IMG/VR virus record: IMGVR_UViG_3300033145_001692
Coordinates: 1 to 28,094 of that record
Length of the DNA: 28,094 bases
Reading direction: 5' to 3' (one strand)
Source of the DNA: a virus
Of the stretch, positions 6,198 through 20,668 are shown piece by piece. A program made the position numbers and the translations under genes. Each line of letters opens with the position of its first letter. Positions within the stretch are counted from its first letter, which is position 1. The notes beneath the pieces were generated by a model. That model was not told where the DNA came from. It searched no databases and was given only the letters and a program-made list of their open reading frames with translations.

Positions 6198-8252
6198 CTA
6201 CTTTCCGTCAAGAACTTTGCAACATTCCCTCAAGGCAATTGTTAGTCCCGCCTCACTCATGTACATGAATGAATCGGTGAAGAAGGGAATGATCAATTCA
6301 CTGAGAGGATTTGGGTAATCTGACAAGAGTACTGTATTCATCCATCCCAGGATTGCATAGCGAGACTGTTCAGGATCTCCTTGAAACCTTTGAAGCTTTT
6401 TCCGGATGATCTCCCACTTGTTGACTTGGTTTTTGTCAAGGAGTGTTTTGCAGATGTCTCCAACAGTAGCTTCACTGACCACGATGTCCTCAATGGCTTG
6501 AAGGGCTGTTTCTTCTTCCTCGATATCAATCACAGAGTCAAGGAGCCCTATGGCCACCCCTGGAGATCCTTCACTGGCCTTGTTGATTCGAGTTAGGATT
6601 GGTGCCATTTCATCCAGGTCGATCTCCTCAAATTCTTTTTCCACGATGCTTTTGAGGTAACTGACCATTGTGGGACTTGGCAAAGGATGGAGGGCTGTTA
6701 TGTGGCACCGTCTTTTGATAGTTGCGAGGATTTTCTCTGGCTCAGTGGTACACAGGCAGAAGTAAGCATGTGCGGGAGGCTCTTCTAAGATCTTGAGTAA
6801 AGCATCCTGGGCATGTGTCGTAAGTTTGTGACAATTATGAACAAGTGTATTTTCTGCATAGTAAGAAGGATGGCCTTCGATTTCAAGATCATAAAATTTT
6901 ACAAAGCCTTTAGTTCTTTCTTTATCTCCAACAATACTTTGGAAAGATTCGTCATTACTTCCTGGTTGGTAAACCTCAACACTTTCCACCCGAGTTCTGT
7001 CAGTTTCTCCTCTTTCTTTTTGTCTTTCAATATAGCTTGTTTCCTGTTGTGTCCATCTCCATCTATCTCCACACCTATTCTTAGAGATGTGTTCGCTATG
7101 TCTATTTTGTAATTTGTGGGATATCCCGGTTCGAGTTTCATCAATGATACAGCCACTTCCATCTCCCAACCCAATGCCGACGAAAGCAAGAGTTGGGGAG
7201 TAGTGTGCTTTCCATTTCCCCCACGCTGCCCTGGCCAGATGTGCAAAGTTCCATTCAATCTTTTTGTGGCTAACATTTTTTGGATACTGGATTCTTGTTG
7301 CATTGGGTTGTTTTTCTTCATTCTTTCCGAGGAAGCCTTGCACTGCTCTTTGAATTGGGTTGTTTGCATGAATTGATGTTTTCCCCTCTTTATCAATTCC
7401 CGGTGTTCTTTGCTCCTCAGCATTTCTTTCATCTCTGGCCGATTGCTGTTCCATTTTGCTGCACAGCTTAGGGAGCAGAATCGAAAATGGATTTCTTTTC
7501 GAAAGAAGAGGTTGGAACACCATTCGCATGGCACCCATTGTGGTTTTCTGCAATTGTCGCAGTACCTTTGGTTGTGTACTTTTGGTGAAAAGTTCTCTCG
7601 GCAGATACGACAGCGCCTCAGTTTGATCAACATTGTTTTCTCCTTTTAGTGAACTAATGAGTAGCATGTTATCACTAAAGGAACGAAATAGCAAATTGTT
7701 TTTCAGATCTTTTGCTCTAACCCATCCTGTGGGGGTGAGGAATAAGTGATCTTCGGAACAGAAAATAGGCTTGTCAGATGTATTCACTCTGACAATTCTT
7801 TGCAAAGACACTTTGTTTTCAAAAGTTTGGGAGACTTTTGAAAACCCATCTATAGATTCCACCCAGTCTCCACCATTGATTTCTTCTATCGGAACCGATC
7901 CTATACTTGTTCGAATCATTGTTCCGATACCAAAACACTCATCAAATGTCATCACTTTGAACTTACCATCCGTTGGTTGATAGTAAGCCTTCTCCTTGAT
8001 GGCTCTGGCAAAATCAACCCCACCCGTGTTGGCGGCATCATACTCATAGTAGTCAAAATCCGAACAGCCTATCATACTCTTCACAATTCTTGCCAGAGTA
8101 GTCTTGCCAACACCCGCTTTGCCGACAAAGAGGTAAACCTGCTTCCTGTCTTGGGGTTCTCTGTCCAGCATGGTTGTTAGTGCTTCTATTCCCGCTTCGT
8201 TTCCAACGAAATCCTCAAGCGTTTCTGGTCGGTGTTTCAGATTTAATGACAT
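6198..8252 (-). CDS. Clamp-loader ATPase (DnaX/gp44-like) interrupted by an intein
   Basis: The precursor is 684 aa; the host protein after splicing is about 316 aa, the usual size of a phage clamp-loader large subunit. The N-terminus has the typical LKHRPETLEDFVGNE, Walker A GKAGVGKT (residues 44-51) and Walker B VMTFDE. The intein begins at Cys106, right after DE, and the sequence resumes at Cys474 with CHKLTTHAQDALLKILEEPP, the conserved stretch following the DEAD/DEC box. An arginine-finger region IKRRCH follows. The ribosome site is AAGGAG. The start overlaps the polymerase 3' end by 38 bases. With the sliding clamp and polymerase it would form the phage replisome. Confidence 0.9.
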   Translation of the reverse strand: MSLNLKHRPETLEDFVGNEAGIEALTTMLDREPQDRKQVYLFVGKAGVGKTTLARIVKSMIGCSDFDYYEYDAANTGGVDFARAIKEKAYYQPTDGKFKVMTFDECFGIGTMIRTSIGSVPIEEINGGDWVESIDGFSKVSQTFENKVSLQRIVRVNTSDKPIFCSEDHLFLTPTGWVRAKDLKNNLLFRSFSDNMLLISSLKGENNVDQTEALSYLPRELFTKSTQPKVLRQLQKTTMGAMRMVFQPLLSKRNPFSILLPKLCSKMEQQSARDERNAEEQRTPGIDKEGKTSIHANNPIQRAVQGFLGKNEEKQPNATRIQYPKNVSHKKIEWNFAHLARAAWGKWKAHYSPTLAFVGIGLGDGSGCIIDETRTGISHKLQNRHSEHISKNRCGDRWRWTQQETSYIERQKERGETDRTRVESVEVYQPGSNDESFQSIVGDKERTKGFVKFYDLEIEGHPSYYAENTLVHNCHKLTTHAQDALLKILEEPPAHAYFCLCTTEPEKILATIKRRCHITALHPLPSPTMVSYLKSIVEKEFEEIDLDEMAPILTRINKASEGSPGVAIGLLDSVIDIEEEETALQAIEDIVVSEATVGDICKTLLDKNQVNKWEIIRKKLQRFQGDPEQSRYAILGWMNTVLLSDYPNPLSELIIPFFTDSFMYMSEAGLTIALRECCKVLDGK
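6834..7937 (-). mobile_element. Cys-type intein in the clamp loader with an out-of-frame endonuclease gene
   Basis: The intein is 368 aa. It begins CFGIGTMIRTSIGSVPIEEI (block A) and has a block-B-like SEDHLFLTPTGWV. It ends KFYDLEIEGHPSYYAENTLVHN with Cys +1 of the host. The true splicing parts are only the first ~101 and last ~22 residues. The middle ~245 residues are an in-frame reading of a separate endonuclease gene (6899-7633), so the linker looks like no domain (QRTPGIDKEGKTSIHANNP and similar). Cys1, His-Asn and Cys+1 are all present, so splicing should be possible if the long linker is tolerated. The insertion is in the Walker B/DExC motif, a typical conserved intein site. Confidence 0.9.
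6899..7633 (-). CDS. Homing endonuclease (Vsr/DUF559-like) nested in another frame of the intein
   Basis: This 244-residue protein has its own ribosome site, AAAAGGAG, seven bases before the ATG at 7633. Cysteine knuckles come first (CRICRENF...CDNC, CEWC, CSLSC), then a GKHQFMQTTQFKEQC-type segment and WPGQRGGNGKHTTPQ. The C-terminus has the restriction-fold core IGVEIDGDGH...KEEKLTELGWKVLRF, as in Vsr-like/DUF559 and EDxHD-type homing nucleases. It is one frame off the clamp-loader precursor and ends exactly where the intein C-terminal block begins. It would cut the empty clamp-loader allele to spread the intein. Confidence 0.85.
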   Translation of the reverse strand: MLIKLRRCRICRENFSPKVHNQRYCDNCRKPQWVPCEWCSNLFFRKEIHFRFCSLSCAAKWNSNRPEMKEMLRSKEHRELIKRGKHQFMQTTQFKEQCKASSERMKKNNPMQQESSIQKMLATKRLNGTLHIWPGQRGGNGKHTTPQLLLSSALGWEMEVAVSLMKLEPGYPTNYKIDIANTSLRIGVEIDGDGHNRKQAILKDKKKEEKLTELGWKVLRFTNQEVMTNLSKVLLEIKKELKAL

Positions 8253-10830
8253 CTAATTTCTCCTTTTCTACCCATGAACCATCTATAGGTGTGATTTCGT
8301 AATCGACTGACAATGGAACGATTATCCATTTGTGTTCTTCCCTGAGTCGGACAGTGGTGATATGGTTTACAACTTCTATTACATGGTCTTGTTCTGATGG
8401 ATCCAAGTCGAAGAGAATTGAATCATGTATCTGTCCCATCATCTTTGTCTTCCAACCTTCTTTTCGTCTTACTTTTCCTACTTCGATCAATGACCACAAG
8501 TTGCAATGAAAGGCGGTACCTTGTATTTGTCTGTTGCCCGCCTTCCTTGGAGTCAAGACTCCGTAACATTCAAATCCGAAAAATGTGCCAACAAACCCAC
8601 GTTTGATGTATGATTCATTGACCTGTTCTTTCCATTTTCTGTAGACAGGAAATCTTTCGTACCATAGTATATTTTCAACCCCTCGAACGTGGTTTTCAAA
8701 GTCTTCCAGAGTGTGTATTTTATGGTCATGTAGATGTTCTTCCAGAATAATTCCTGATACAGTCTTCAATTGACGATGCTCCCAGAGGTTCTTGGCACAT
8801 TCTTTGTACCATGAGCCATAAAACTCTGGAAATACAAACTCATTCTTAGCGTAAAACCTGATATCGTCGGTGATTTCTTCTTGTGGAAGAATCCAAGTAT
8901 CTGCCGCGGAGTCTCTATGCATGTCAGTTGATTTGTCAGTGATGTAGGCAATCATGTTTGGATCTTTGTGATAACATGCTCCAATACCAACTTCTATACC
9001 TTTAAAATCGACTTCCAATATTTTGTTTGCTGGAGATGCTGTAATCCCTCTTCTACATGTTTCCTTTGCTTCTTCATCCCTCACAGGTACATTCTGAAAG
9101 TTTGGTTTTGAACTTGAGGAGCGGTATGAACGTGCCGTATTTAGATCGATGAAGGGATGCATTTTTCCATTGTGTGACTCCCTTCTGAATTGTGCAAGGT
9201 ATGTTCCTTGTGTCTTTTCCAATTTTCTCATGCGGATAAGTTGTTCCACAAAAGGAAGTTCAAATTTCTCTATGGTAGCCGCATCTCTCTTCAGATTGCC
9301 TTTGGGTGTTCTTACTTCAGGAACTCCTAACACATCATAGAACAGGATTCCTATGTCAGTCGAGGAGTTAATCTGGAGAGTCCTGCCCGTCTTGTTTCTA
9401 AATAGCTTTGCCTCTTCGGTTTCCTCCTGTAGATGTTTCCTAAGTTGGGCTATCTCTTCCTTGATACGGATATTTTCTCCATGGTAATATTCTTCGTCTG
9501 TGCAAATTCCATTGTGCTGAATGTCAGCAAACTCTATGAGCCCTTCATGGAAGAGTTGATATGCCTCCCTCATTCCAGGTCTTCTTTGATCAAATTCAGA
9601 GTCCTGAATCTCGTCAAGCCAAGCACCATAAAGACTGTCAGAGCCTCCGTATTCGAGAAGTTCTTTGAGGTCTACTTCTTCAATCCTGTTGTAATCTCCT
9701 TTGCTTGCTTCAAAGAAAGTTTTTACACGTTTGTCATATGGTCGAATACCAAACTTGAGGAAGGTTTGTTTGTTGAGGTTTACATAGTCTCTTCTTGGAT
9801 TCAGTATATGGGCGGCGTTCATTGTACATTTGTGCCAGTTGACTATGGATACATCAAAGAACACCCTCGTCCATATTTCCTCAAACTTGAGATTATGGGC
9901 ACCTTTCTTTGATCTTTGTTCGGTTACTATTTTGATCCATCTGGTTTTTATCTCTTGCTGTTGGTTAGGAGTGAAGTAGTCTCTATATTGATAAGGCCAT
10001 GAATATGCAATTGAAGGTTCGGCACATGCGGACATTGAAACTATCTTATGACCAGGTTTGTATGGTTTTAATCCTGTAGCTTCATAATCGATAAAGAGGT
10101 ATTCTGGTGGTTCTTCTATAAGTTTGTCAAGGTGGGCTATTATTTCTTGGTGATCGAAGAGGGGAACTACTTCACCCGACCAATGATCTGTGTCGAACGG
10201 TTCTTTACTTAGTAGTGCTATAGCATTCTGCAAGTCTCTGTCATAGACGGAGCAGATATTTCGATCTTTGTCTTGCCTCTTTCTGTATGATGGATGCCAG
10301 AGACTCGACACCCAAGCATTCGTCTTTCTGTCTGGAAAAGAAAGACCCCGCCATGCACCAGCAGTTGTGTTGGAGAAGTCTTCTCCCAAGTATGACTTGT
10401 TGGCACATTCACCCATTAGCCATATGTATTCAGGTTGGAGCTTTCTGATGGTTTCTTGTATTATAGGACGGCAGAAAGCTATCTGATCATCTGTTGGGGT
10501 GCCTATCTTGTTCCCATCTCTTTTGGGTAGACAGCAAATGGAATTGATCTTCCAGAAGTCTCTGTCAAGTTGAAGGCTATGTAGTTTGAGCCTTGATCGG
10601 AAGTACTGACCAATTGGGCCCATTAACTGTTTGCCTACTTTATCTTCTATATCACCTGAGGCTTCAGCTATGATGAGACACTTCTTCTCACCTCTTCCAG
10701 TGTGAGTCATCATGGGTGATTCACATCTGAATTTCAATCCACACTTATCACAATGTGGACCCGTGTCATCCAGATTGACTTCATATCTGGTTTGTTTCTC
10801 GAACTCCTCATCGGTGAAGAAACCTGGCAT
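8215..10830 (-). CDS. DNA polymerase I family enzyme fused to a UDG-like domain
   Basis: This is an 871-residue replicative polymerase. Residues 1-215 resemble family-4-type uracil-DNA glycosylases: CDKCGLKFRC cysteines, CLIIAEASGDIEDKVGKQLM and a late LWHPSYRKR. The usual GEAPG is altered, so activity is doubtful. Next is a DnaQ-type 3'-5' exonuclease with DYEATGL (Exo I), HNLKFEEIW (Exo II, with Glu where Asp is usual) and YGGSD (Exo III). The polymerase palm follows: motif A EVDFKGIEVGIG, motif B RFYAKNEFVFPEFYG and motif C GQIHDSILFDL. The 5'-3' exonuclease is a separate gene at 2234-3103. The ATG at 10830 has only a weak ribosome site and follows the previous stop by one base, suggesting coupling. 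Confidence 0.93.
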   Translation of the reverse strand: MPGFFTDEEFEKQTRYEVNLDDTGPHCDKCGLKFRCESPMMTHTGRGEKKCLIIAEASGDIEDKVGKQLMGPIGQYFRSRLKLHSLQLDRDFWKINSICCLPKRDGNKIGTPTDDQIAFCRPIIQETIRKLQPEYIWLMGECANKSYLGEDFSNTTAGAWRGLSFPDRKTNAWVSSLWHPSYRKRQDKDRNICSVYDRDLQNAIALLSKEPFDTDHWSGEVVPLFDHQEIIAHLDKLIEEPPEYLFIDYEATGLKPYKPGHKIVSMSACAEPSIAYSWPYQYRDYFTPNQQQEIKTRWIKIVTEQRSKKGAHNLKFEEIWTRVFFDVSIVNWHKCTMNAAHILNPRRDYVNLNKQTFLKFGIRPYDKRVKTFFEASKGDYNRIEEVDLKELLEYGGSDSLYGAWLDEIQDSEFDQRRPGMREAYQLFHEGLIEFADIQHNGICTDEEYYHGENIRIKEEIAQLRKHLQEETEEAKLFRNKTGRTLQINSSTDIGILFYDVLGVPEVRTPKGNLKRDAATIEKFELPFVEQLIRMRKLEKTQGTYLAQFRRESHNGKMHPFIDLNTARSYRSSSSKPNFQNVPVRDEEAKETCRRGITASPANKILEVDFKGIEVGIGACYHKDPNMIAYITDKSTDMHRDSAADTWILPQEEITDDIRFYAKNEFVFPEFYGSWYKECAKNLWEHRQLKTVSGIILEEHLHDHKIHTLEDFENHVRGVENILWYERFPVYRKWKEQVNESYIKRGFVGTFFGFECYGVLTPRKAGNRQIQGTAFHCNLWSLIEVGKVRRKEGWKTKMMGQIHDSILFDLDPSEQDHVIEVVNHITTVRLREEHKWIIVPLSVDYEITPIDGSWVEKEKLDVIKSETPTRNA

Positions 10831-11446: not shown

Positions 11447-12496
11447 TCATTCCACCTTGTAAGCAAGAAGGTGACTAAATTCCTCATCGGAGAACTTTGC
11501 CATGTACTTACCTATAGAGATTGTGGATGATCTTGTCAAAACTTCCAACAATAGTACAGGATTTATATGGAATTCAATCCTGTCTCCTACATATTGAATC
11601 TCACACTCACTGGTTGAGAATCCCCCATCCTGTCTGCCTTCACAAGTTATGAGGTTATCTTCTATCGTCACGGAGATTGCTTTCTCGGCGGCAGTATCAC
11701 CTGAACTCATGATAGAGGATATGTCGATGGCATTCTTCAAATCGTCGGGAAACTCTATGTCAGTGCCCTGGAATTTCTCAAACAAGCGATCATAGGCGAG
11801 TGTCTCTCCATTTATTTTTCTGGCACTGAGAGTCAGATTGTCCTCATCTATGAAATGTACCCAGGATTTGGTGACAAAGTAATGTGTGAAGGAATAGTCT
11901 CGAATTGTTGGAATGATACTTGCTTTGATCATGAACGATCCCATGGGCGTTTTAAGTTTGTACCTACTGGTTCTGTCCTGATCACCACACCAGATGATAT
12001 TCTCTTCAACTCGGATGCAGGTTGCCGTTCCTGAGGATTCGTCTTTGCTTGCTGAAAAGGAGCAAAGATAAGCACCCTTCTGAAAGTCGTCCTTTTTGGG
12101 CAATTCAATCCAGTCATCGATCTCGGCAAGCTCATTTGTAAGGTTCTTGGCTTGTTTGAATACTGCATGATTCCGAACAAGTGAACAGGAAACCTTGCTT
12201 TTGCCTGATGAGGTTACAATAGAAGACGGAAGACCATCTCCTCCCTTTGCTTCCACCACCTGAATCACAACCCCTTCAGATTTGATCTTGGTCAAAGCTT
12301 CGTACATCTTGCTGGCTTCAACCGATCCCACAAAGTCGGTTTCATAAGGATGATGGATGCACAACCGATCGTTGTAGGTTATGACATCTTTACCAGTGAA
12401 AAGGAAATGTGTCATCTCTTCGACTATTTCCTTTGTTGCAAGACCTGGCTTCACTTTGTTCAGTATGTCAAGTAGATCCTTCCTCTTCACTTCCAT
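11447..12496 (-). CDS. Sliding clamp (DnaN/beta-clamp-like)
   Basis: This 349-residue, beta-rich protein has the proportions of a bacterial beta clamp (about 365 residues, three repeats). It opens MEVKRKDLLDILNKVKPGLA, as DnaN-type proteins do. It continues through strands typical of the fold (FLFTGKDVITYNDRLCI, VEASKMYEALTKI) and ends ISIGKYMAKFSDEEFSHLLAY. No sharp motif defines the family, but length, pattern and position next to polymerase and clamp loader agree. It would tether the polymerase. The ribosome site is GAGGAG. The start overlaps the upstream small zinc gene by 29 bases. Confidence 0.8.
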   Translation of the reverse strand: MEVKRKDLLDILNKVKPGLATKEIVEEMTHFLFTGKDVITYNDRLCIHHPYETDFVGSVEASKMYEALTKIKSEGVVIQVVEAKGGDGLPSSIVTSSGKSKVSCSLVRNHAVFKQAKNLTNELAEIDDWIELPKKDDFQKGAYLCSFSASKDESSGTATCIRVEENIIWCGDQDRTSRYKLKTPMGSFMIKASIIPTIRDYSFTHYFVTKSWVHFIDEDNLTLSARKINGETLAYDRLFEKFQGTDIEFPDDLKNAIDISSIMSSGDTAAEKAISVTIEDNLITCEGRQDGGFSTSECEIQYVGDRIEFHINPVLLLEVLTRSSTISIGKYMAKFSDEEFSHLLAYKVE

Positions 12497-12634: not shown

Positions 12635-13006
12635 TTATGTTGCTATGTGTTTGGTGAGATACTCCATACATTCAGGTTTTCGGCACAGAATTGTGATTCT
12701 TTTGACCCGATTCCCCACAATGTTGTTGCCAATCATTCCGCCTTTGAGACCGATGCACACATTTCCATAGAAGGTGAAGAAGTCTTCGGAAAAGCTACTG
12801 TGTAGCTTGTGGCACTGGGAACACTTAACAGTGGGACCGACGTTGAGGTAGTCAATAGTTTCATCCAGGTGAGTATTATGGGGATCAAAGTCGAAGGCTT
12901 CTGCTTCCTTCGATTCGATGTACTCGATAAGCTTCAAAAGATATTCCTGACATCGTGGATTGGTGGGAGCTAAGCCTTTCATTCTATTAAGATCAGGTCT
13001 CTTCAT
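12635..13006 (-). CDS. Hypothetical Cys-containing protein, 123 aa
   Basis: The ATG at 13006 has GAGGAGG upstream. The protein begins MKRPDLNRMKGLAPTNPRC and has a CSQC pair near residue 62 plus CIGLK and CRKPEC later, compatible with a zinc-binding domain. The start lies 14 bases inside the end of the small DpdA-fragment gene. It is the last gene before the clamp-related group. The family is not recognised. Confidence 0.6.
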   Translation of the reverse strand: MKRPDLNRMKGLAPTNPRCQEYLLKLIEYIESKEAEAFDFDPHNTHLDETIDYLNVGPTVKCSQCHKLHSSFSEDFFTFYGNVCIGLKGGMIGNNIVGNRVKRITILCRKPECMEYLTKHIAT

Positions 13007-13169
13007 TTTCTTTCCTCCTCATATTTACTACGGATTGTATGTCATCGACAAAGTAAAAGGAAACCAAACGTCTGTAGACTGGAAATTTCTTCAACACGAT
13101 ATCACGCATAGCCTTTTCAAGTTCTGGATCTTTCATTTGGGGAAAGTTACCAGCAAAGAATATTTTCAT
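12993..13169 (-). CDS. Separate DpdA N-terminal segment (split DpdA candidate)
   Basis: This 58-residue protein is MKIFFAGNFPQMKDPELEKA... with RRLVSFYF near residue 37. From memory of phage TGT-like DpdA proteins, the polypeptide usually starts with a strand of the type MKxFFxG, then an L(x)S(Y/F)xY strand, before the LDSGAxSAW motif. Here those two strands lie in a separate gene immediately downstream, overlapping the DpdA stop as ATGA, while the main DpdA begins right at LDSGAYSAW. It may therefore supply in trans a piece missing from the main protein. This is an inference; it could be an unrelated small protein. Confidence 0.5.
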   Translation of the reverse strand: MKIFFAGNFPQMKDPELEKAMRDIVLKKFPVYRRLVSFYFVDDIQSVVNMRRKENEET

Positions 13170-14041
13170 CCGAACAAAGTCCTTTTCGTAGGCTTGTACT
13201 TCCAAGGCCATTCAGGTATGTTCTGTTCAACCTCTGCATAGAAGAAAAGGTTCAGTTGATCCCTCAATTTATGGTCATTACATAGTCCTGATCGAATGAC
13301 TACCTCTTTCTCATCATCTGTCCATTCAGATGTACCAAGAGAAAACCCTTGATATTCAAAGTACTCCAAAATCCTGTCTTGCAGCATTGGGGGTAAGGAA
13401 TCAATATGCTTGTCCTCAAGTTTCTTTTGTGGGGATCTACCAGACAGGAATATTACGAAAGGATTCTTTCTGAAGTTGTAGGAACCGTTCTCATACCGAG
13501 GTACAAGAACGGCTCCATATTTCGAAAACTGCATCCAACTACCACTGTCAACAGAGTACCAGGGATATCGATACATGATGGGAATCGAAGTGACGCCAAA
13601 TCCATGAAACTTCACTGTAGGGAGCCCTTCCCCATCTGTGACGTAATCCATGCACTGATTCAGCCATCCAATCTTTTCCTTCGTTGATCGATCATTGGCT
13701 GGTGAAAGGCCAATGAAATCCATAATCTTCACCATTCGCTCAAGCCACACGAATTTTTCTTCTTGGTGAAAGACATGGATTAATTTATCTGCTGGTACTC
13801 CATGTTTGAGAAGGGTTCGATAGTTCCTAAACCCTTCCCTGGATGCGTTTTCGATTGCACCCTCACCTATATATGTACCCTTAAGCCCAATTTCACCAGG
13901 AATGACATCCAGATTGACAATGTAATCAAAGCAGTCCAGATACTCCATAGCAAATTTGGCATAGGCATGGATATCAACGTGCTCTTTCTTTGCCCAGGCG
14001 GAGTATGCACCTGAGTCAAGCATGATTTCAGTTTTAGTCAT
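13166..14041 (-). CDS. dpdA: DpdA-like DNA 7-deazaguanine transglycosylase (TGT paralogue)
   Basis: This 291-residue TIM-barrel protein is of the tRNA-guanine transglycosylase superfamily, phage DpdA type. The signature is LDSGAYSAW (residues 8-16, Asp9 a likely catalytic residue), then YIVNLDVIPGEIG (Asp45), FIGLSPAND and VKFHGFGVTSIPIM. In this family the enzyme swaps guanine in DNA for a preQ0-derived base. The neighbours QueC/D/E/F and FolE supply preQ0 and preQ1. The protein begins almost at the first barrel motif, shorter at the N-terminus than expected; the missing part may be the next gene. The ATG has no clear ribosome site and lies three bases after the queF stop, so it is probably coupled. 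Confidence 0.82.
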   Translation of the reverse strand: MTKTEIMLDSGAYSAWAKKEHVDIHAYAKFAMEYLDCFDYIVNLDVIPGEIGLKGTYIGEGAIENASREGFRNYRTLLKHGVPADKLIHVFHQEEKFVWLERMVKIMDFIGLSPANDRSTKEKIGWLNQCMDYVTDGEGLPTVKFHGFGVTSIPIMYRYPWYSVDSGSWMQFSKYGAVLVPRYENGSYNFRKNPFVIFLSGRSPQKKLEDKHIDSLPPMLQDRILEYFEYQGFSLGTSEWTDDEKEVVIRSGLCNDHKLRDQLNLFFYAEVEQNIPEWPWKYKPTKRTLFG

Positions 14042-14044
14042 AGT

Positions 14045-15469
14045 CTACATAGGTGGACGTTGATACTTTGTGAGAACGTCCAAGTGTATTCCACCACGAG
14101 GATTGAACTCTGAATGAACTTCCAGATATACTGGCTGAAGGATTATTACCAAGTCCTGGCGGATCTTGTTGGTGATTGTCTCCATGAATGATCTGTGGTT
14201 TCTGTAGGCAAACATGTACAGCTTGAAAGACTTGGTTTCCAGACACAGTTTAGCTGGGGTATATTCGACAGTGATTTTCGCAAAGTCAGGTTGTCCTGTC
14301 TTTGGACAGTTGTGAACTACTATCCCATTAGCGAAAAAGCATTCCGTATCTTCTACTTCCATATTGTACACATCAGCTTTTCCTATAAATTCAATGAATT
14401 TAACTTTGTGGTTTAACGGAAGTAAATTTCTTTCCAATTTCAACAGTCTTGATTGATTGGATTCTCTAATTTCTCCTCCTGCTCGTTTTACCCATGAACT
14501 GATTGTGGTTGGGTGTACATTGTAATAATTAGCTAAAGTATATATATCATAACCTTGTTCATAGTATTTTCTACATTCTTCGGTACAGGAGTCCATTCTT
14601 GTTTTATGTTTCAAGTTCAAAGATGCTGATTGACTTCGTTTTTCTACCAAATGACCAATCCTTGATTCGATTGTAGAATAATCACACCCATACTTCTTTG
14701 CAAGAGAGTGTATATTTTCACCCTTATTATATTCAGCAACCAATTTGCTTATGTCTAATGAGTCTTCCCATCCATATTGAATCAATCTGTGTAGTTTAGT
14801 GTGTTCCCTATTGTTTGGGAGAACCTCAATATTTGATGGAGTATTGTTGTTATGACATAGATCAGCATGATGGGGAATTTCTTCTTTTGATAATGATCTT
14901 CCTACAATTTCTTCTGCTACCAATCTGTGTCTTCGTTTTCCTCTAATAAAGTCCGAACTTCGTTGATCTACAACCAACTGGTCGTCCTTTTTGAGTTTCT
15001 TTGCTTTCACCCAATTGTAAACTCCCCACCCTCTTCGAACCAAAACTAAATGGTTTAGAGTAACATCTATATACTTTCTTTCCTTCTGCCTATTTGACGA
15101 AATTCCTTTGAACAATTCAAAATGTATTCTAACCATCATGGCATTTCTTTTTGTCTTTCTTACGCTATGGTATTGTTTTGCTACAGGAACATTTCGATCT
15201 TTGTCAAATGAAAATACTATTCCCTCAGTTCCAACAAGATCTTTGATAGGAACACCACAAGGATAGTCATTTTCATTGGTAGCTATGTCAATGAAAGTGT
15301 TGCCTCCAAGACACAATGAGGTGAACTCTACCGTATCAAGCTTTACGGTGTAGTCACTGTCGGGGTACTTGTTGTCAAATGTTTCGAGCATGTTCGGCCC
15401 GGGGTTGGAATACTTGTAATCGGTTTCCTTTGAACCTAACTGTTTGAGGTGTTCTACGTCATCATTCAT
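14045..15469 (-). CDS. queF: QueF, preQ0 reductase, interrupted by an intein
   Basis: The precursor is 474 aa; the spliced enzyme is about 139 aa, the size of the short (type I) NADPH-dependent 7-cyano-7-deazaguanine reductase. Residues 1-52 end DTVEFTSL. The sequence resumes at Cys388 as CPKTGQPDFAKITVEYTP, where the Cys is the catalytic thioimide-forming residue. The QueF signature LETKSFKLYMFAYRNH and the end NPRGGIHLDV follow. It reduces preQ0 to preQ1, so the modified base in this phage should be at the preQ1 level. The start has no strong ribosome site. Its 5' end is duplicated at 15695-15743. Confidence 0.95.
   Translation of the reverse strand: MNDDVEHLKQLGSKETDYKYSNPGPNMLETFDNKYPDSDYTVKLDTVEFTSLCLGGNTFIDIATNENDYPCGVPIKDLVGTEGIVFSFDKDRNVPVAKQYHSVRKTKRNAMMVRIHFELFKGISSNRQKERKYIDVTLNHLVLVRRGWGVYNWVKAKKLKKDDQLVVDQRSSDFIRGKRRHRLVAEEIVGRSLSKEEIPHHADLCHNNNTPSNIEVLPNNREHTKLHRLIQYGWEDSLDISKLVAEYNKGENIHSLAKKYGCDYSTIESRIGHLVEKRSQSASLNLKHKTRMDSCTEECRKYYEQGYDIYTLANYYNVHPTTISSWVKRAGGEIRESNQSRLLKLERNLLPLNHKVKFIEFIGKADVYNMEVEDTECFFANGIVVHNCPKTGQPDFAKITVEYTPAKLCLETKSFKLYMFAYRNHRSFMETITNKIRQDLVIILQPVYLEVHSEFNPRGGIHLDVLTKYQRPPM
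14309..15313 (-). mobile_element. Cys-type intein with HNH endonuclease in QueF
   Basis: The intein is 335 aa, from Cys53 (CLGGNTFIDIATNENDYPCG) to the final VVHN, with the QueF catalytic Cys as +1. The block-B region reads KYIDVTLNHLVLVRRGWGV. An HNH core is visible as IPHHADLCHNNNTPSNIEVL followed by NNREHTKLH. Two helix-turn-helix repeats (NIHSLAKKYGCDYSTIESRI and DIYTLANYYNVHPTTISSWV) probably bind the homing site. The end KADVYNMEVEDTECFFANGI gives blocks F/G. All splice residues are intact. The HNH and DNA-binding parts suggest it is mobile or recently so. Confidence 0.92.
15421..15469 (-). repeat. Copy 1 of a 49-base duplication (queF 5' end)
   Basis: These are the first 16 codons of queF. 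The same 49 bases recur at 15695-15743 with three base differences near the ATG; the other 33 or more bases are identical. Confidence 0.95.
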
Positions 15470-16005: not shown

Positions 16006-16644
16006 TTACATCATTGATATCTTGATCATTTCCAATGCTTCTGCCTTTGCTGAGGAATCTGACAGGAATACTCCGTGAATAGCTGAGTTTGTCATCCCAG
16101 CATTACCATACTGATTGACACCACGACAACTCATGCATTGGTGAATGGCCCTCATCATTACCATACAGGCAAGAGGTTTGGCATGTTTGACAAAGCTGCT
16201 CAAGACATCCCCACAAAGATTTTCCTGAATTTGAGGCATCGCCGCATAATGTTCAATGCATCTTGCAGGTTTGGATGCTCCAACAAGGACTTTGTCCGGA
16301 ATGTACAACACCCAAGCCTTGCCTACGAAAGGAAGAAAATGATGTGAGCAGGTGGATACGAAATGGATATTGTCGAGCATTATTATCTGATTGTTCCTCC
16401 GTTCTTGAGAAATGGGATGTTCTTTTGATATTCCCATCACTTCGGCAACAACTTCATTCGGAAAAACCGTCCACCCTTCGAACTCTTTGCCGACGTTTCG
16501 AAACAGTTGGAAGTACATCCGACCGATTCGTTCAGGAGTATCTTCCATATTGGGATCTGTCATGTCCAATCCCAGAGCTTGCATCATAAGGGCAACGTAA
16601 TGGTGTACAGGACCAGTATAAGGGTCCGAAGGACTATGTTTCAT
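16006..16644 (-). CDS. folE: GTP cyclohydrolase I
   Basis: This 212-residue protein has the GTP cyclohydrolase I fold and length. Residues after MKHSPSDPY include the helical start and NMEDTPERIGRMYFQLF. Zinc ligands are in STCSHHFLPFVGKAWVLYIP (Cys and His) and IHQCMSCRGV (second Cys). The stretch VLVGASKPARCIEHYA carries the conserved core. It makes dihydroneopterin triphosphate from GTP, the first step to preQ0. I start it at the ATG at 16644, overlapping the queC stop by 11 bases with AAAGGT upstream; the upstream TTG at 16662 is inside queC. It stops six bases before the tRNA-like RNA. Confidence 0.95.
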   Translation of the reverse strand: MKHSPSDPYTGPVHHYVALMMQALGLDMTDPNMEDTPERIGRMYFQLFRNVGKEFEGWTVFPNEVVAEVMGISKEHPISQERRNNQIIMLDNIHFVSTCSHHFLPFVGKAWVLYIPDKVLVGASKPARCIEHYAAMPQIQENLCGDVLSSFVKHAKPLACMVMMRAIHQCMSCRGVNQYGNAGMTNSAIHGVFLSDSSAKAEALEMIKISMM

Positions 16645-18001
16645 TTGGATGTAACCTTTCAATCAGTGGATCAGGCACCCCAGCTTCTTCAAAGCCTTTT
16701 GCTCTTAACACACATGCTGGGCATTTCCTACAAGGTACTGTTTGTCCTTCATAGCAAGTGTGAGACCATGCCAGGGCAGACATACAGCCAGGAATTGTTT
16801 GTGCCAGCTTCACTGATTCAGTTTTAGTTAAATATCCTAACGGGGTGTGTATTGTAGTTTTTTTATCAATCCCTTTCCTCAAAGTTCTTTGCATATTGAA
16901 CATGAATTCTGGGGTGCAATCAGGATATGCTGCTCCAAGATACTCCTGGCTCATTTGTAATTCAACATACACCTTGCTAAGTTTTTCCTTTGAGGTTTTC
17001 ATTCTGATTCGGGGGTTAATTTGTGGATAGACGGTTTGGGTAATATTTCCATCAGAAACGTACAAAGTCTTCTCTGGTTTATTTACATACCCTTTTCCAA
17101 GGAATCTTTTGATATCTTTCAGAAGATGCAGGTTGTTTTGGTAGAACATGTAGTTAGGATAAAAAACAGTAACTCCATTTTTTGTTGTGTATTTCCTTTT
17201 TCCTACTCCGCCATCTCCTTCCCAGAAACCACTCAACCAATCCCAGCTGATTTTTGGAAATGGGGATATAATATCCATATTAAATTGACGAAACATTGAT
17301 CTGGCTTGGCGTCTCTTCATTTTTGAACAGAGCTTTGGGTATATTTTTTCCATAACAGGAAATACGTTCTTCCTGTAATTGATTGTCAACACATAATTGA
17401 CATTTCCTGATTTCTTCGATTTGTCTGGGTATACATGACAAGTTACTCCTAACTCTTCGACAAGGAATTGTTGGATTCTCTCAATTATTCCTAAATCATT
17501 TTGTGACAATCCGATTGTGGGGATTTTCTTTCTGTCTGATCCAGCCACTCCTCTTGAGAACCACCCCTCAGCTTCCCAGAAACCACTCAACCAATCCCAA
17601 TTTATTGGTGGATAAGTCCAGAAATCTGAAGTTGTGGTTCCTGTAATGATATTCTTGATCTTGTGCTTGTAGGCGAACATTGCTGCAAGTGTCAGGAAGA
17701 TGATATTCCTGCCAGGAACAAATGATGCAGGCAATGATGGGTTGTTAGGGTGAGCTTCTTCAACTGGGCCTTTGGAGAGTAAAGCAGAATTCCCAACACT
17801 TTGCATGATATCTGTAGTAATACAGAACCAGGGGGCCTTTGCTATGCTGGCAATCTTCTTAGCTGAATCAACCTCAATAGCATGACGTTGACCATAAGCA
17901 AAAGTCAACGCCACACATTCGAAGCCATGCTCAAGAGCCCAGAACAAGGAGGTTGTTGAGTCTTGGCCTCCACTTAGGAGAACTACGGCTCTTTTCGGCA
18001 T
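16634..18001 (-). CDS. queC: QueC, preQ0 synthase, with in-frame LAGLIDADG insertion
   Basis: The reading frame is 455 residues, against about 230 for QueC. N-terminal QueC features are intact: VVLLSGGQDSTTSL (ATP pyrophosphatase P-loop), FAYGQRHAIE, SFVPGRNIIFLTLAA and IITGTTTSDF. QueC resumes around residue 355 with YLGAAYPDCTPEF and closes with the zinc site CYEGQTVPCRKCPACVLRA. Between them lie about 227 residues of LAGLIDADG endonuclease. The host enzyme converts CDG to preQ0. The ATG at 18001 has AAGGGGT upstream. Whether the product is spliced, or works with the insert in a loop, cannot be read from sequence. Confidence 0.92.
   Translation of the reverse strand: MPKRAVVLLSGGQDSTTSLFWALEHGFECVALTFAYGQRHAIEVDSAKKIASIAKAPWFCITTDIMQSVGNSALLSKGPVEEAHPNNPSLPASFVPGRNIIFLTLAAMFAYKHKIKNIITGTTTSDFWTYPPINWDWLSGFWEAEGWFSRGVAGSDRKKIPTIGLSQNDLGIIERIQQFLVEELGVTCHVYPDKSKKSGNVNYVLTINYRKNVFPVMEKIYPKLCSKMKRRQARSMFRQFNMDIISPFPKISWDWLSGFWEGDGGVGKRKYTTKNGVTVFYPNYMFYQNNLHLLKDIKRFLGKGYVNKPEKTLYVSDGNITQTVYPQINPRIRMKTSKEKLSKVYVELQMSQEYLGAAYPDCTPEFMFNMQRTLRKGIDKKTTIHTPLGYLTKTESVKLAQTIPGCMSALAWSHTCYEGQTVPCRKCPACVLRAKGFEEAGVPDPLIERLHPNET
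17218..17245 (-). repeat. 28-base direct repeat, copy in the second LAGLIDADG motif
   Basis: This sequence is identical base for base to 17572-17599 and encodes WDWLSGFWE in both. Such nucleotide identity between the two halves of an endonuclease is more than the protein motif requires. Confidence 0.95.
17572..17599 (-). repeat. 28-base direct repeat, copy in the first LAGLIDADG motif
   Basis: This is the partner of 17218-17245, identical over 28 bases and 354 bases apart, which is the size of one endonuclease half. Confidence 0.95.
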
Positions 18002-18708: not shown

Positions 18709-20304
18709 TTAAGAATCTTCTTCAAGTGCGAGAAACTTGTGGATCTGTGTGTTCAATTTGACATGGAACAGGTAGCTTTCTTTCATCCATCGTAGCAGGG
18801 TTGGGGCGGGTAACAGCCCGAAAACAGGGGAGAATGCAAATTGGGCTTTAACCCCAATAGATTCCATATCGTTCAGCACTCGATGGGCTCTAATGTAATC
18901 GTTGTAATCTGCAATGAGGAACTTGACGAAATCTGTTTCTCTTAATTCCCGAAATAAGATCAATTCCATCATTCTGTGGTCAACTGCTGAACTTGGAAGT
19001 TTGTAGTCAACAACCCAACCATCGACATACTCATTTCCAATGAGTTTGTAGGAGCCATTTGTTTCGACCGTGATTGTGTATCCATAGCGTTTCAGCATTC
19101 GGACAGTTTCGAGGAAGTACCCCCCTTGCATCAAAGGCTCTCCGCCCGTGATTGTCACTTTCTGACAACCAATCTCTTCAAGCTGAAAGAGCAGGACATC
19201 GTTGTGCATCTGAGGTTTCTTTTCAAGAGCGTAGGTTGTATCACAGTTATGTACCCACATATTGTCGATCAAGTAGGTATTGTGTGGGGTACAAGACAAG
19301 TTGTAAACTTTCAATGGTTTTGGTCTTATAGAAGGTGGGAATTGCTTCCTGTCAATTGACTTTATATTTTGTACTTCAAAACCATTTAGTTTCAACATCC
19401 TTAACTGACTTTCAATTGTCAGGTTTTTTCCATCTTTTCTGTCCCCCTTCCAAAAATTGTAACCCCTATGATGGGTGACATTATGACAAGAGTTACAAAT
19501 AATGGATATATTTGACAACGAATCGTTTTCTTGATTGCCATCAATATGATGTGGAATTACTTTTGTTTCTTCCATACAATCGAAACATGTATTCAATGCG
19601 CCTTCACGACACAAATCAGATAAATAGTCATAGTTAGGTGTTCTACTGCCTCCCTTCCAATTAGGATTGTTGCTTCCCAATTTCGATATGGAAAGTTTCT
19701 TTCTGATTTCTTCTTTTTTTTCCTTAGATAAAAGATCCCAAACAGGCACATATGTTCCAGACTCTTTTTTCTTTTGGATTGTCTTTGAGACTTCCTTTCC
19801 CATTAAAACATAATCAGTATTTGAAGCTGATTTTTGGGCAACTTCTTTCCTTTTCATGGGATTCTTACTCCCTATTTTTGAAAAGGAAAACTTTTCTTCA
19901 GGAGATGAGTGTAATATCATATCACCTTCCTGTAATTCCTTGGCGAGCATCATGCCTTTGCTTGTAAAAAAAGGATGCTCTTCGGTAACAAAATATACCC
20001 TGCCATTTATTTTCATTTTCAACCATTGATCTACTTCTCGATTAGTAGTTTCCACAACCGTTGTTTCCGCCAACTCACCTTTGGTGTCATAGGTTATCAG
20101 CACATCCCCAGGAACAACTTCATTCAATTTCTTGTTGGGTCCACGCAATGTTGTTATTTTTGGAATTCTACTTCCTTCACGAATCCCAAAACAGTGTTTG
20201 CATCTCAGGTTGCATCCCGCCACACGGATGAATGTAGTGAGAGTTCCTTGCCCATAACGATTGACTTCGCCATCGATTGAGTTGAATAAGCTATATACCC
20301 GCAT
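18709..20304 (-). CDS. queE: QueE, radical SAM CDG synthase, interrupted by an intein
   Basis: The precursor is 531 aa from the ATG at 20304, chosen because GGAGGT is four bases upstream; a GTG just before is also in frame. The host part is about 215 residues, the normal QueE size. It has SLFNSIDGEVNRYGQGTLTTFIRVAGCNLRCKH, then after the intein CDTTYALEKKPQ. Joined, this gives the radical SAM CxxxCxxC, whose last Cys is the +1 residue. The SAM motif TITGGEPLMQ follows. QueE turns carboxytetrahydropterin into carboxy-deazaguanine. The start overlaps the queD end by 14 bases. Confidence 0.95.
   Translation of the reverse strand: MRVYSLFNSIDGEVNRYGQGTLTTFIRVAGCNLRCKHCFGIREGSRIPKITTLRGPNKKLNEVVPGDVLITYDTKGELAETTVVETTNREVDQWLKMKINGRVYFVTEEHPFFTSKGMMLAKELQEGDMILHSSPEEKFSFSKIGSKNPMKRKEVAQKSASNTDYVLMGKEVSKTIQKKKESGTYVPVWDLLSKEKKEEIRKKLSISKLGSNNPNWKGGSRTPNYDYLSDLCREGALNTCFDCMEETKVIPHHIDGNQENDSLSNISIICNSCHNVTHHRGYNFWKGDRKDGKNLTIESQLRMLKLNGFEVQNIKSIDRKQFPPSIRPKPLKVYNLSCTPHNTYLIDNMWVHNCDTTYALEKKPQMHNDVLLFQLEEIGCQKVTITGGEPLMQGGYFLETVRMLKRYGYTITVETNGSYKLIGNEYVDGWVVDYKLPSSAVDHRMMELILFRELRETDFVKFLIADYNDYIRAHRVLNDMESIGVKAQFAFSPVFGLLPAPTLLRWMKESYLFHVKLNTQIHKFLALEEDS
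19246..20193 (-). mobile_element. Cys-type intein with zinc-HNH endonuclease in QueE
   Basis: The intein is 316 aa, from CFGIREGSRIPKITTLRGPN to DNMWVHN, with the third iron-sulfur Cys of QueE as +1. Block B is VYFVTEEHPFFTSKG. NUMOD3-like DNA-binding motifs are present (IGSKNPMKRKEV and KLGSNNPNWKGG). The HNH domain has zinc-binding pairs: CFDCMEETKVIPHHIDGNQE, then NISIICNSCHNVTHH. Block F/G is KVYNLSCTPHNTYLIDNMWV. All splicing residues are intact. It shares the start CFGI with the clamp-loader intein, although the endonucleases are unrelated. Confidence 0.93.
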
Positions 20305-20668
20305 CACACCTCCATTCGGCGAAACAGCCCTCAGTCTCCCACAACTTAATGGAGATCAGATTGATTCGATGACTGACTGACGTTGTAAAGGATATTCGTA
20401 TTCGGTGAAGGGAACTCCTGACAATATTCTCAGCCGTCGGGTTGCTGATAATATTATTGAGAAGGGAGTGATCAAGTTCTTCAATTACAGCCTTGTTGAC
20501 AAGGGACTTCAGTTCTTTGAGGTCCATCACCATTCCAGTGTCAGGATCAACAGGCCCCTCTATCCTTACTTCCATTTTGTACGAATGTCCGTGGAGATTT
20601 TTGCAATCTCCGTCGTATTTGGGCAACCGGTGTGCCGCTTCGAAATGAAACGTGGCTCCTAAAATCAT
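20291..20668 (-). CDS. queD: QueD, 6-carboxytetrahydropterin synthase
   Basis: This 125-residue protein is the size of QueD. Zinc ligands are His13 (FEAAHRLPKY) and His26/His28 (CKNLHGHSY), with Cys22 as the reactive cysteine. GMVMDLKELKSLV and LDHSLLNN carry the catalytic Asp/His region, and LWETEG carries the substrate Glu. It converts FolE product to 6-carboxy-tetrahydropterin. The ribosome site is GAGGAG. The ATG overlaps the previous small gene as ATGA. It is the first enzyme gene of the modification cluster. Confidence 0.95.
   Translation of the reverse strand: MILGATFHFEAAHRLPKYDGDCKNLHGHSYKMEVRIEGPVDPDTGMVMDLKELKSLVNKAVIEELDHSLLNNIISNPTAENIVRSSLHRIRISFTTSVSHRINLISIKLWETEGCFAEWRCDAGI

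Follow-up and report, generated by a model that had tools for sequence, protein, structure and literature searches.

How does an enzyme built on a TIM barrel, a fold usually treated as one indivisible chain, come to lack the first two strands of that barrel? The question concerns DpdA, which replaces guanine in DNA with a 7-deazaguanine. In the viral DNA analysed here (IMG/VR record IMGVR_UViG_3300033145_001692, positions 1 to 28,094; the whole stretch of 28,094 nucleotides is called the window), the dpdA gene reads MTKTEIMLDSGAYSAW at its start and KRTLFG* at its end, and its start codon lies 7 residues ahead of LDSGAYSAW. An earlier note on this DNA had pointed out this late entry into the enzyme and the 58-residue gene that follows with an ATGA overlap. 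It proposed that the missing front piece has moved behind the enzyme gene, giving a two-subunit, circularly rearranged transglycosylase. Both open reading frames were confirmed as described (Table 1). The small one encodes MKIFFAGNFPQMKDPELEKAMRDIVLKKFPVYRRLVSFYFVDDIQSVVNMRRKENEET (MKIFFAGNFPQ...YRRLVSFYF...KENEET*), and its alternative mechanical start, at 13211, lies within dpdA.

Table 1. Coordinates of the features discussed for the window.
Feature	Position	Strand	Evidence or remark
dpdA core	13166..14041	-	291 aa; strands 3-8 of TGT-type barrel
58-aa module ORF	12993..13169	-	Detached DpdA N-terminal module (beta1-alpha1-beta2-alpha2) by homology to segments of L059, L011 and L009/L117/L025/L085
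ATGA overlap	13166..13169	-	dpdA stop (TGA) / 58-aa ORF start (ATG)
Shine-Dalgarno-like AAAAGGA	13180..13186	-	5' of the 58-aa ORF ATG
QueF (preQ0 reductase), intein-interrupted	14045..15469	-	PF14489 E=3.9e-28; intein PF14890 E=4.8e-9; immediately upstream of dpdA
FolE, GTP cyclohydrolase I	16006..16662	-	PF01227 E=4.8e-41
QueC, in-frame LAGLIDADG insertion	16634..18001	-	PF06508 E=3.1e-60; PF14528/PF00961
QueE (radical SAM), interrupted by intein-like HINT domain	18709..20307	-	PF04055, PF07591; assigned as QueE from pathway context
QueD (6-carboxytetrahydropterin synthase)	20291..20668	-	PF01242 E=3.3e-33
DNA polymerase processivity factor (clamp)	11447..12496	-	phrog_947 E=2.4e-21; synteny with L002, L004-L007
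Family A DNA polymerase	8215-10830	-	N-terminal uracil-DNA-glycosylase-superfamily domain (PF03167, PF00476)
Clamp-loader gene	6198-8252	-	Contains an intein
244-aa ORF	6899-7633	-	Inside the clamp-loader gene in another frame; DUF559/Vsr-like nuclease domain (PF04480 E=1.5e-13)

The dpdA product matched phrog_887 with E=1.2e-40, the alignment starting at profile position 56, and phrog_7068 with E=7.7e-10; a tblastn search for DpdA matched 230 phage records. The DSGA[FY]S motif and the active-site aspartates of tRNA-guanine transglycosylase (TGT) and DpdA are present, and the DpdA-conserved D9, D45 and D165 were invariant when the core was aligned with five phage DpdAs (alignment A1). The C-terminal zinc site of TGT (CxC..C...H) was also looked for, and no CxC motif was found in the 291-residue sequence. 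DpdA is expected to be encoded with preQ0 pathway genes, and here FolE, QueD, a QueE-like protein, QueC and QueF adjoin it in an operon of the preQ0 type. Because a QueF gene is present, we infer that the product is probably of the dPreQ1 type (Hutinet et al., PMC6884629). Downstream of the small gene lie the clamp and then the family A DNA polymerase, in the same order as in Queuovirinae. Inteins interrupt both the QueF and the QueE-like gene, so that several members of one modification pathway have been invaded; for the QueC insertion, neither a Pfam intein-splicing match nor an Rfam intron was found. An intron or riboswitch reading of the window was rejected, as the window had no match in Rfam.

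The size of the missing part could be defined from relatives. In phage DpdAs, about 60 residues precede DSGA. A full-length DpdA from an uncultivated virus (L059) enters the independent phrog_887 profile at position 10, whereas the core of the window enters at 56 and that of another relative (L011) at 58, so about 46-48 N-terminal profile positions present in L059 are absent from both cores. Structure comparison with Z. mobilis TGT gave the same picture, with the L059 model starting at the equivalent of residue 40 and the L011 core at 94. The segment absent from the core fronts therefore corresponds to about TGT residues 40-93, namely strands 1 and 2 plus the accompanying helices. The dpdA gene of the window thus does not encode a complete one-chain barrel with strands 1-2 before DSGA.

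We then compared the 58-residue sequence with the DpdA front segment. Against the five cultured-phage DpdAs alone, the similarity was not significant and suggestive at most (best shuffle p 0.11). A search with the 58-mer (P0002) gave no Pfam match and no useful PHROG match, a viral scan with P0001 alone returned no matches, and neither the 58-mer nor the L117 module, used as tblastn queries, found a standalone module in 50,697 cultured-phage records. Since the cultured-phage comparison and the Pfam and PHROG searches gave nothing significant, closer relatives and profiles were needed. The same comparison with the uncultivated L059, which begins MKLYLAGNFPAMADPKYEEHLYNISIREIGVYRRLLSFHFLKDIKTVYNL, was clear, with 25/53 residues identical to its fused N-terminus. 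The 328-residue core of L011 ends CHFYVSGNFPQMKDPYLETECFIIVCNHNNNIYNRLASFWFKDDCESVIDVKRT, and 24/50 residues of this C-terminal tail are identical to the 58-mer. Identity to the split modules of L009 and L117 was 31/57 and 26/54. For each of these four proteins, 0/2000 shuffles scored as well, and a profile HMM built from fused N-termini retrieved the 58-mer among all ORFs at E=1.9e-8. Standalone modules also retain the AG and RLxS[YF] positions conserved in barrel strands 1-2. Judged by these sequence comparisons, the 58-mer is homologous to the segment of about 56 residues (beta1-alpha1-beta2-alpha2) that precedes LDSGA in full-length DpdA.

It is mainly at codon position 3 that the 58-mer gene differs from its counterparts in L009, L117, L025, L085 and L011, while substitutions relative to L059 are about equally frequent in positions 1 and 3. 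Because of this concentration in codon position 3, the small frame was taken as a real coding sequence. The same pattern bears on whether we are dealing with a decayed or mis-assembled gene, in which DpdA is broken and its 5' end survives as a stray duplicate. Duplication of the 5' end could indeed yield tandem modules, but the coding-type substitutions, the conserved catalytic residues and the layout shared by the independent assemblies L009, L117 and L025 make this reading scarcely credible; assembly error as such was excluded, since independent contigs share the layout.

The predicted structures were consistent with this assignment. When L059 was modelled with AlphaFold2, natural standalone modules and cores serving as extra alignment rows, the result was a complete barrel (pLDDT 93.7, pTM 0.90) in which the module occupies residues 1-56 (beta1 2-5, alpha1 15-29, beta2 32-37, alpha2 38-53, followed by beta3 57-62). 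Another alignment (A2), which set the standalone modules wrongly on the DSGA strand, was excluded from folding. The best PDB match of the model was 7ui4, the DNA preQ0 insertase DpdA, with Z 19.3 over 269 residues from model residue 1; the comparison with TGT gave Z 18.7. Sequence-based PDB searches with alignments A1 and A5 returned no matches, and the link to the TGT and DpdA structures comes from fold comparison only. The L011 model was less certain (pLDDT 81, pTM 0.77; core versus TGT/DpdA Z about 12). Its tail was predicted as strand-gap-strand-helix at low confidence (pLDDT about 35-76, with residues 282-306 below 50), which is no more than compatible with a permutation. Foldseek gave TM 0.42 for this permutant, a low value of the kind expected when a rotated chain is aligned sequentially, and it was not taken as proof.

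To place the window among its relatives, 100 non-redundant loci were surveyed, comprising viral contigs and a few contigs from metagenome-assembled genomes (MAGs). Three layouts were observed: the module fused ahead of the core (N-fused), a core alone with one or more separate modules upstream and/or downstream, and the module fused behind the core (C-fused). All 196 module matches lay on the dpdA strand and none on the opposite strand. When 35 viral records of 10-100 kb were searched over their whole length, modules were found in 35/35, essentially only around dpdA. Between 7 and 9 core-only loci lacked a nearby module, and for two of them (L024, L015/L109) a more distant part of the record holds one. 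The layout of the window, a core, ATGA and a module of the NFP type, was repeated exactly in L009 and L117.

Compared by hhalign with the profile of standalone modules, the C-fused tails, NFPQ types left out, matched at E=6.7e-9, and the rotated order in a single chain, a natural circular permutant, was found in L011, L027, L018, L065, L066, L072, L073 and L082. In the core tree, the window pairs with the permuted L011 as its sister (support 99/96). Layouts change at least 19 times on this tree; the C-fused label taken alone requires 3 changes. Deep branches are weakly supported. Split and permutation of this TIM barrel are thus recurrent across many uncultivated viruses and not a one-off. The claim that the normally preceding segment was displaced behind the enzyme gene held, resting on the homology to the L059 N-terminus and the L011 C-terminus and on the position beside L011. 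The circular rearrangement held in part: it exists within one chain in relatives such as L011, whereas the window encodes two chains and is itself split, not a one-chain permutant. Because strands 1-2 sit in a separate ORF, we regard its DpdA as a split variant and not a canonical member. Close homologues that also start at LDSGA, which the earlier note would have counted as a refutation, do exist; they do not refute the displacement, because they encode the segment as a separate ORF or C-terminally.

Several relatives were of interest in their own right. L180, L181 and L195 are DpdA relatives on contigs binned as archaea (Aenigmatarchaeota, Thorarchaeota and Methanoperedens), possibly viruses, and in L180 and L195 a module lies directly behind the core. 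In a Clostridiales MAG (L190 995-2062), tandem modules (MDLYLAGTTP...RLLSFYW and LELYLVGPEK...NMLFNYI) are fused ahead of one DpdA core. The C-fused DpdA of L027 (3004-4884, 646 aa) has an intein-like insertion immediately ahead of its catalytic DS(T)W motif (WFC...VTGNSIDSTTW). GP[HN]xHLA repeats, 2-4 per DpdA chain, were seen in L197 789-1928 (Mycobacterium phage Hedgerow), L198, L199 and L092. The DpdA of Hedgerow (Rosebush species) has one such unit N-terminally and the rest C-terminally; in those of Sour, Quesadilla and Finch, whose chain opens with strand 2, every copy sits at the C-terminus. These units look like extra beta1 units, and the actinophage repeats may represent another type of permutation, one that keeps spare copies, although both proposals rest on pattern only, without a significant profile match. 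In L193 and L094 (Mycobacterium phage Nadezda), the DpdA chain opens with strand 2 and closes with a beta1-like unit (LRIYFADSYPSQLPMLAQF; LQLYIADSSTTWTPAAAVG), which suggests a chain rotated between alpha1 and beta2.

How the two chains of the window are produced was considered at their junction. The ATGA overlap was interpreted as translational coupling of dpdA and the small ORF. A 4-nt overlap with the start at stop minus 3 is shared by 15 split and 9 N-fused loci, and AAAGGA stands at the equivalent place before the module ATG in L009 and L117. Programmed frameshifting at the overlap could instead yield one fused permuted chain like that of the sister L011, and a 1-nt shift would join the frames. 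However, no canonical slippery heptamer was seen at the junction, the Shine-Dalgarno sequence before the module ATG is good, and ATGA-type overlaps are common in loci whose module is plainly a gene of its own, all of which leaves frameshifting very improbable.

In the two-chain enzyme that we propose, the 291-residue chain would contribute the conserved aspartates along with strands 3-8 of the TGT-type (beta/alpha)8 barrel. Its 58-residue partner would be made by coupled re-initiation at the ATGA overlap, fold as beta1-alpha1-beta2-alpha2 and dock in the gap, completing the barrel with strands 1-2 in trans. In TGT, Val45, Leu68 and Asn70 of the strand 1-2 segment line the pocket of the exchanged nucleotide (PMC5395182). 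The small chain should thus matter for substrate binding, and it is inferred to be needed for activity. A physical precedent for a strand unit supplied by another chain is the TrpA of S. pneumoniae, in which precisely the H0-S1-H1-S2 unit passes between chains; TrpA fragments also show complementation at this boundary (PMC7008512). The interpretation as a split or permuted DpdA is well supported. That the window encodes a two-chain DpdA closed by the 58-residue chain is, in our judgement, likely; its assembly, its activity and the requirement for the small chain are inferred, and no two-chain model is available.

The distribution of modules leaves room for other roles. N-fused DpdAs, complete by themselves, were accompanied by separate modules in 20/25 loci, so modules may do more than complete a barrel. 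The small proteins could derive from the DpdA N-terminus and act independently as a regulator, an inhibitor or a separate partner, with the core working without strands 1-2. Those N-fused loci speak for such a role, but core-only enzymes lack two of the eight barrel strands, and the standalone copies retain the AG and RLxS[YF] positions. A separate module was also found in 0/11 C-fused loci, compared with 47/56 core-only loci (Fisher p=1.3e-7; the count left out eight divergent loci that the script called split and that by eye were fused or otherwise permuted), a contrast that also supports the two-chain enzyme. We therefore consider an independent role unlikely.

A further possibility, which we hold only tentatively, is that a single catalytic core can pair with any of several beta1-beta2 modules, which would shape the nucleotide pocket or the dimer interface in different ways and so allow DNA context or regulation to change, the window being the single-module case. 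Many relatives have several different modules next to a single core, up to 6 per locus, on one strand and clustered at dpdA, and the types TPGI, VPGG, ATW, APGNE and NFPQ recur. Several actinophage DpdAs hold the 2-4 beta1-like repeats described above, and in TGT this segment forms part of the lining of the R34/P35 pocket (PMC5395182). On the other hand, there is no evidence of altered sequence context, only one module is present in the window and in most of the NFPQ group, and extra copies could be redundant. It is plausible, untested and, in our estimate, doubtful that phages retarget or retune DNA modification by swapping about 55 residues on a three-quarter barrel with interchangeable strand-1/strand-2 modules. 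The modules would come from the small-gene arrays beside dpdA (up to six) or from the beta1-like repeats that actinophage DpdA chains contain in tandem. Should the module array determine which guanines are exchanged, phages would have a new means of varying how their DNA is protected from host nucleases, and base-exchange enzymes for DNA would gain a practical exchangeable part. The two-chain DpdA remains our preferred reading. The split layout explains truncated-looking viral DpdA genes and the neighbouring runs of unannotated ORFs of about 55 aa. Moreover, N-fused, split and C-fused forms occur in closely related viruses, one sister pair combining a split with a C-fused member, and this makes the steps of a circular permutation readable.

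A literature search that did not cover subscription journals found no report of a split or permuted DpdA or TGT; the window encodes a split form of a known enzyme family, within a wider and apparently undescribed set of permutations. Among the nearest known systems is the DpdA of Queuovirinae, a dPreQ0/dG+ insertase found for example in the CAjan group of Escherichia phages (Hutinet et al. 2019, PMC6884629; PHROG 887), whose core is 29-35% identical to that of the window and shares the DSGA[FY]S motif, the conserved aspartates and the adjoining que, sliding clamp and DNA polymerase genes. However, its own strands 1-2 are N-terminal in the same chain (MNVFMAA...ILESYHYV...FLDSGAFSA), whereas the window encodes them as a separate downstream protein. 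The 7ui4 DpdA and TGT have the same barrel, to which the fused L059 aligns over its full length, but theirs is one chain in canonical order. TGT differs further in using tRNA as its substrate and in having a zinc site; the CxC..C motif of that site does not occur in the window chain. In S. pneumoniae TrpA (PMC7008512), a strand 1-helix 1-strand 2 unit from another chain likewise completes a TIM barrel, although there identical full-length chains swap reciprocally, while the module of the window is separately encoded and displaced. Another close system is the permuted DpdA of the L011 type (IMGVR_UViG_3300017971_000294), the sister of the window core with the same NFPQMKDP module, in which the module is fused to the core C-terminus in a true one-chain circular permutation.
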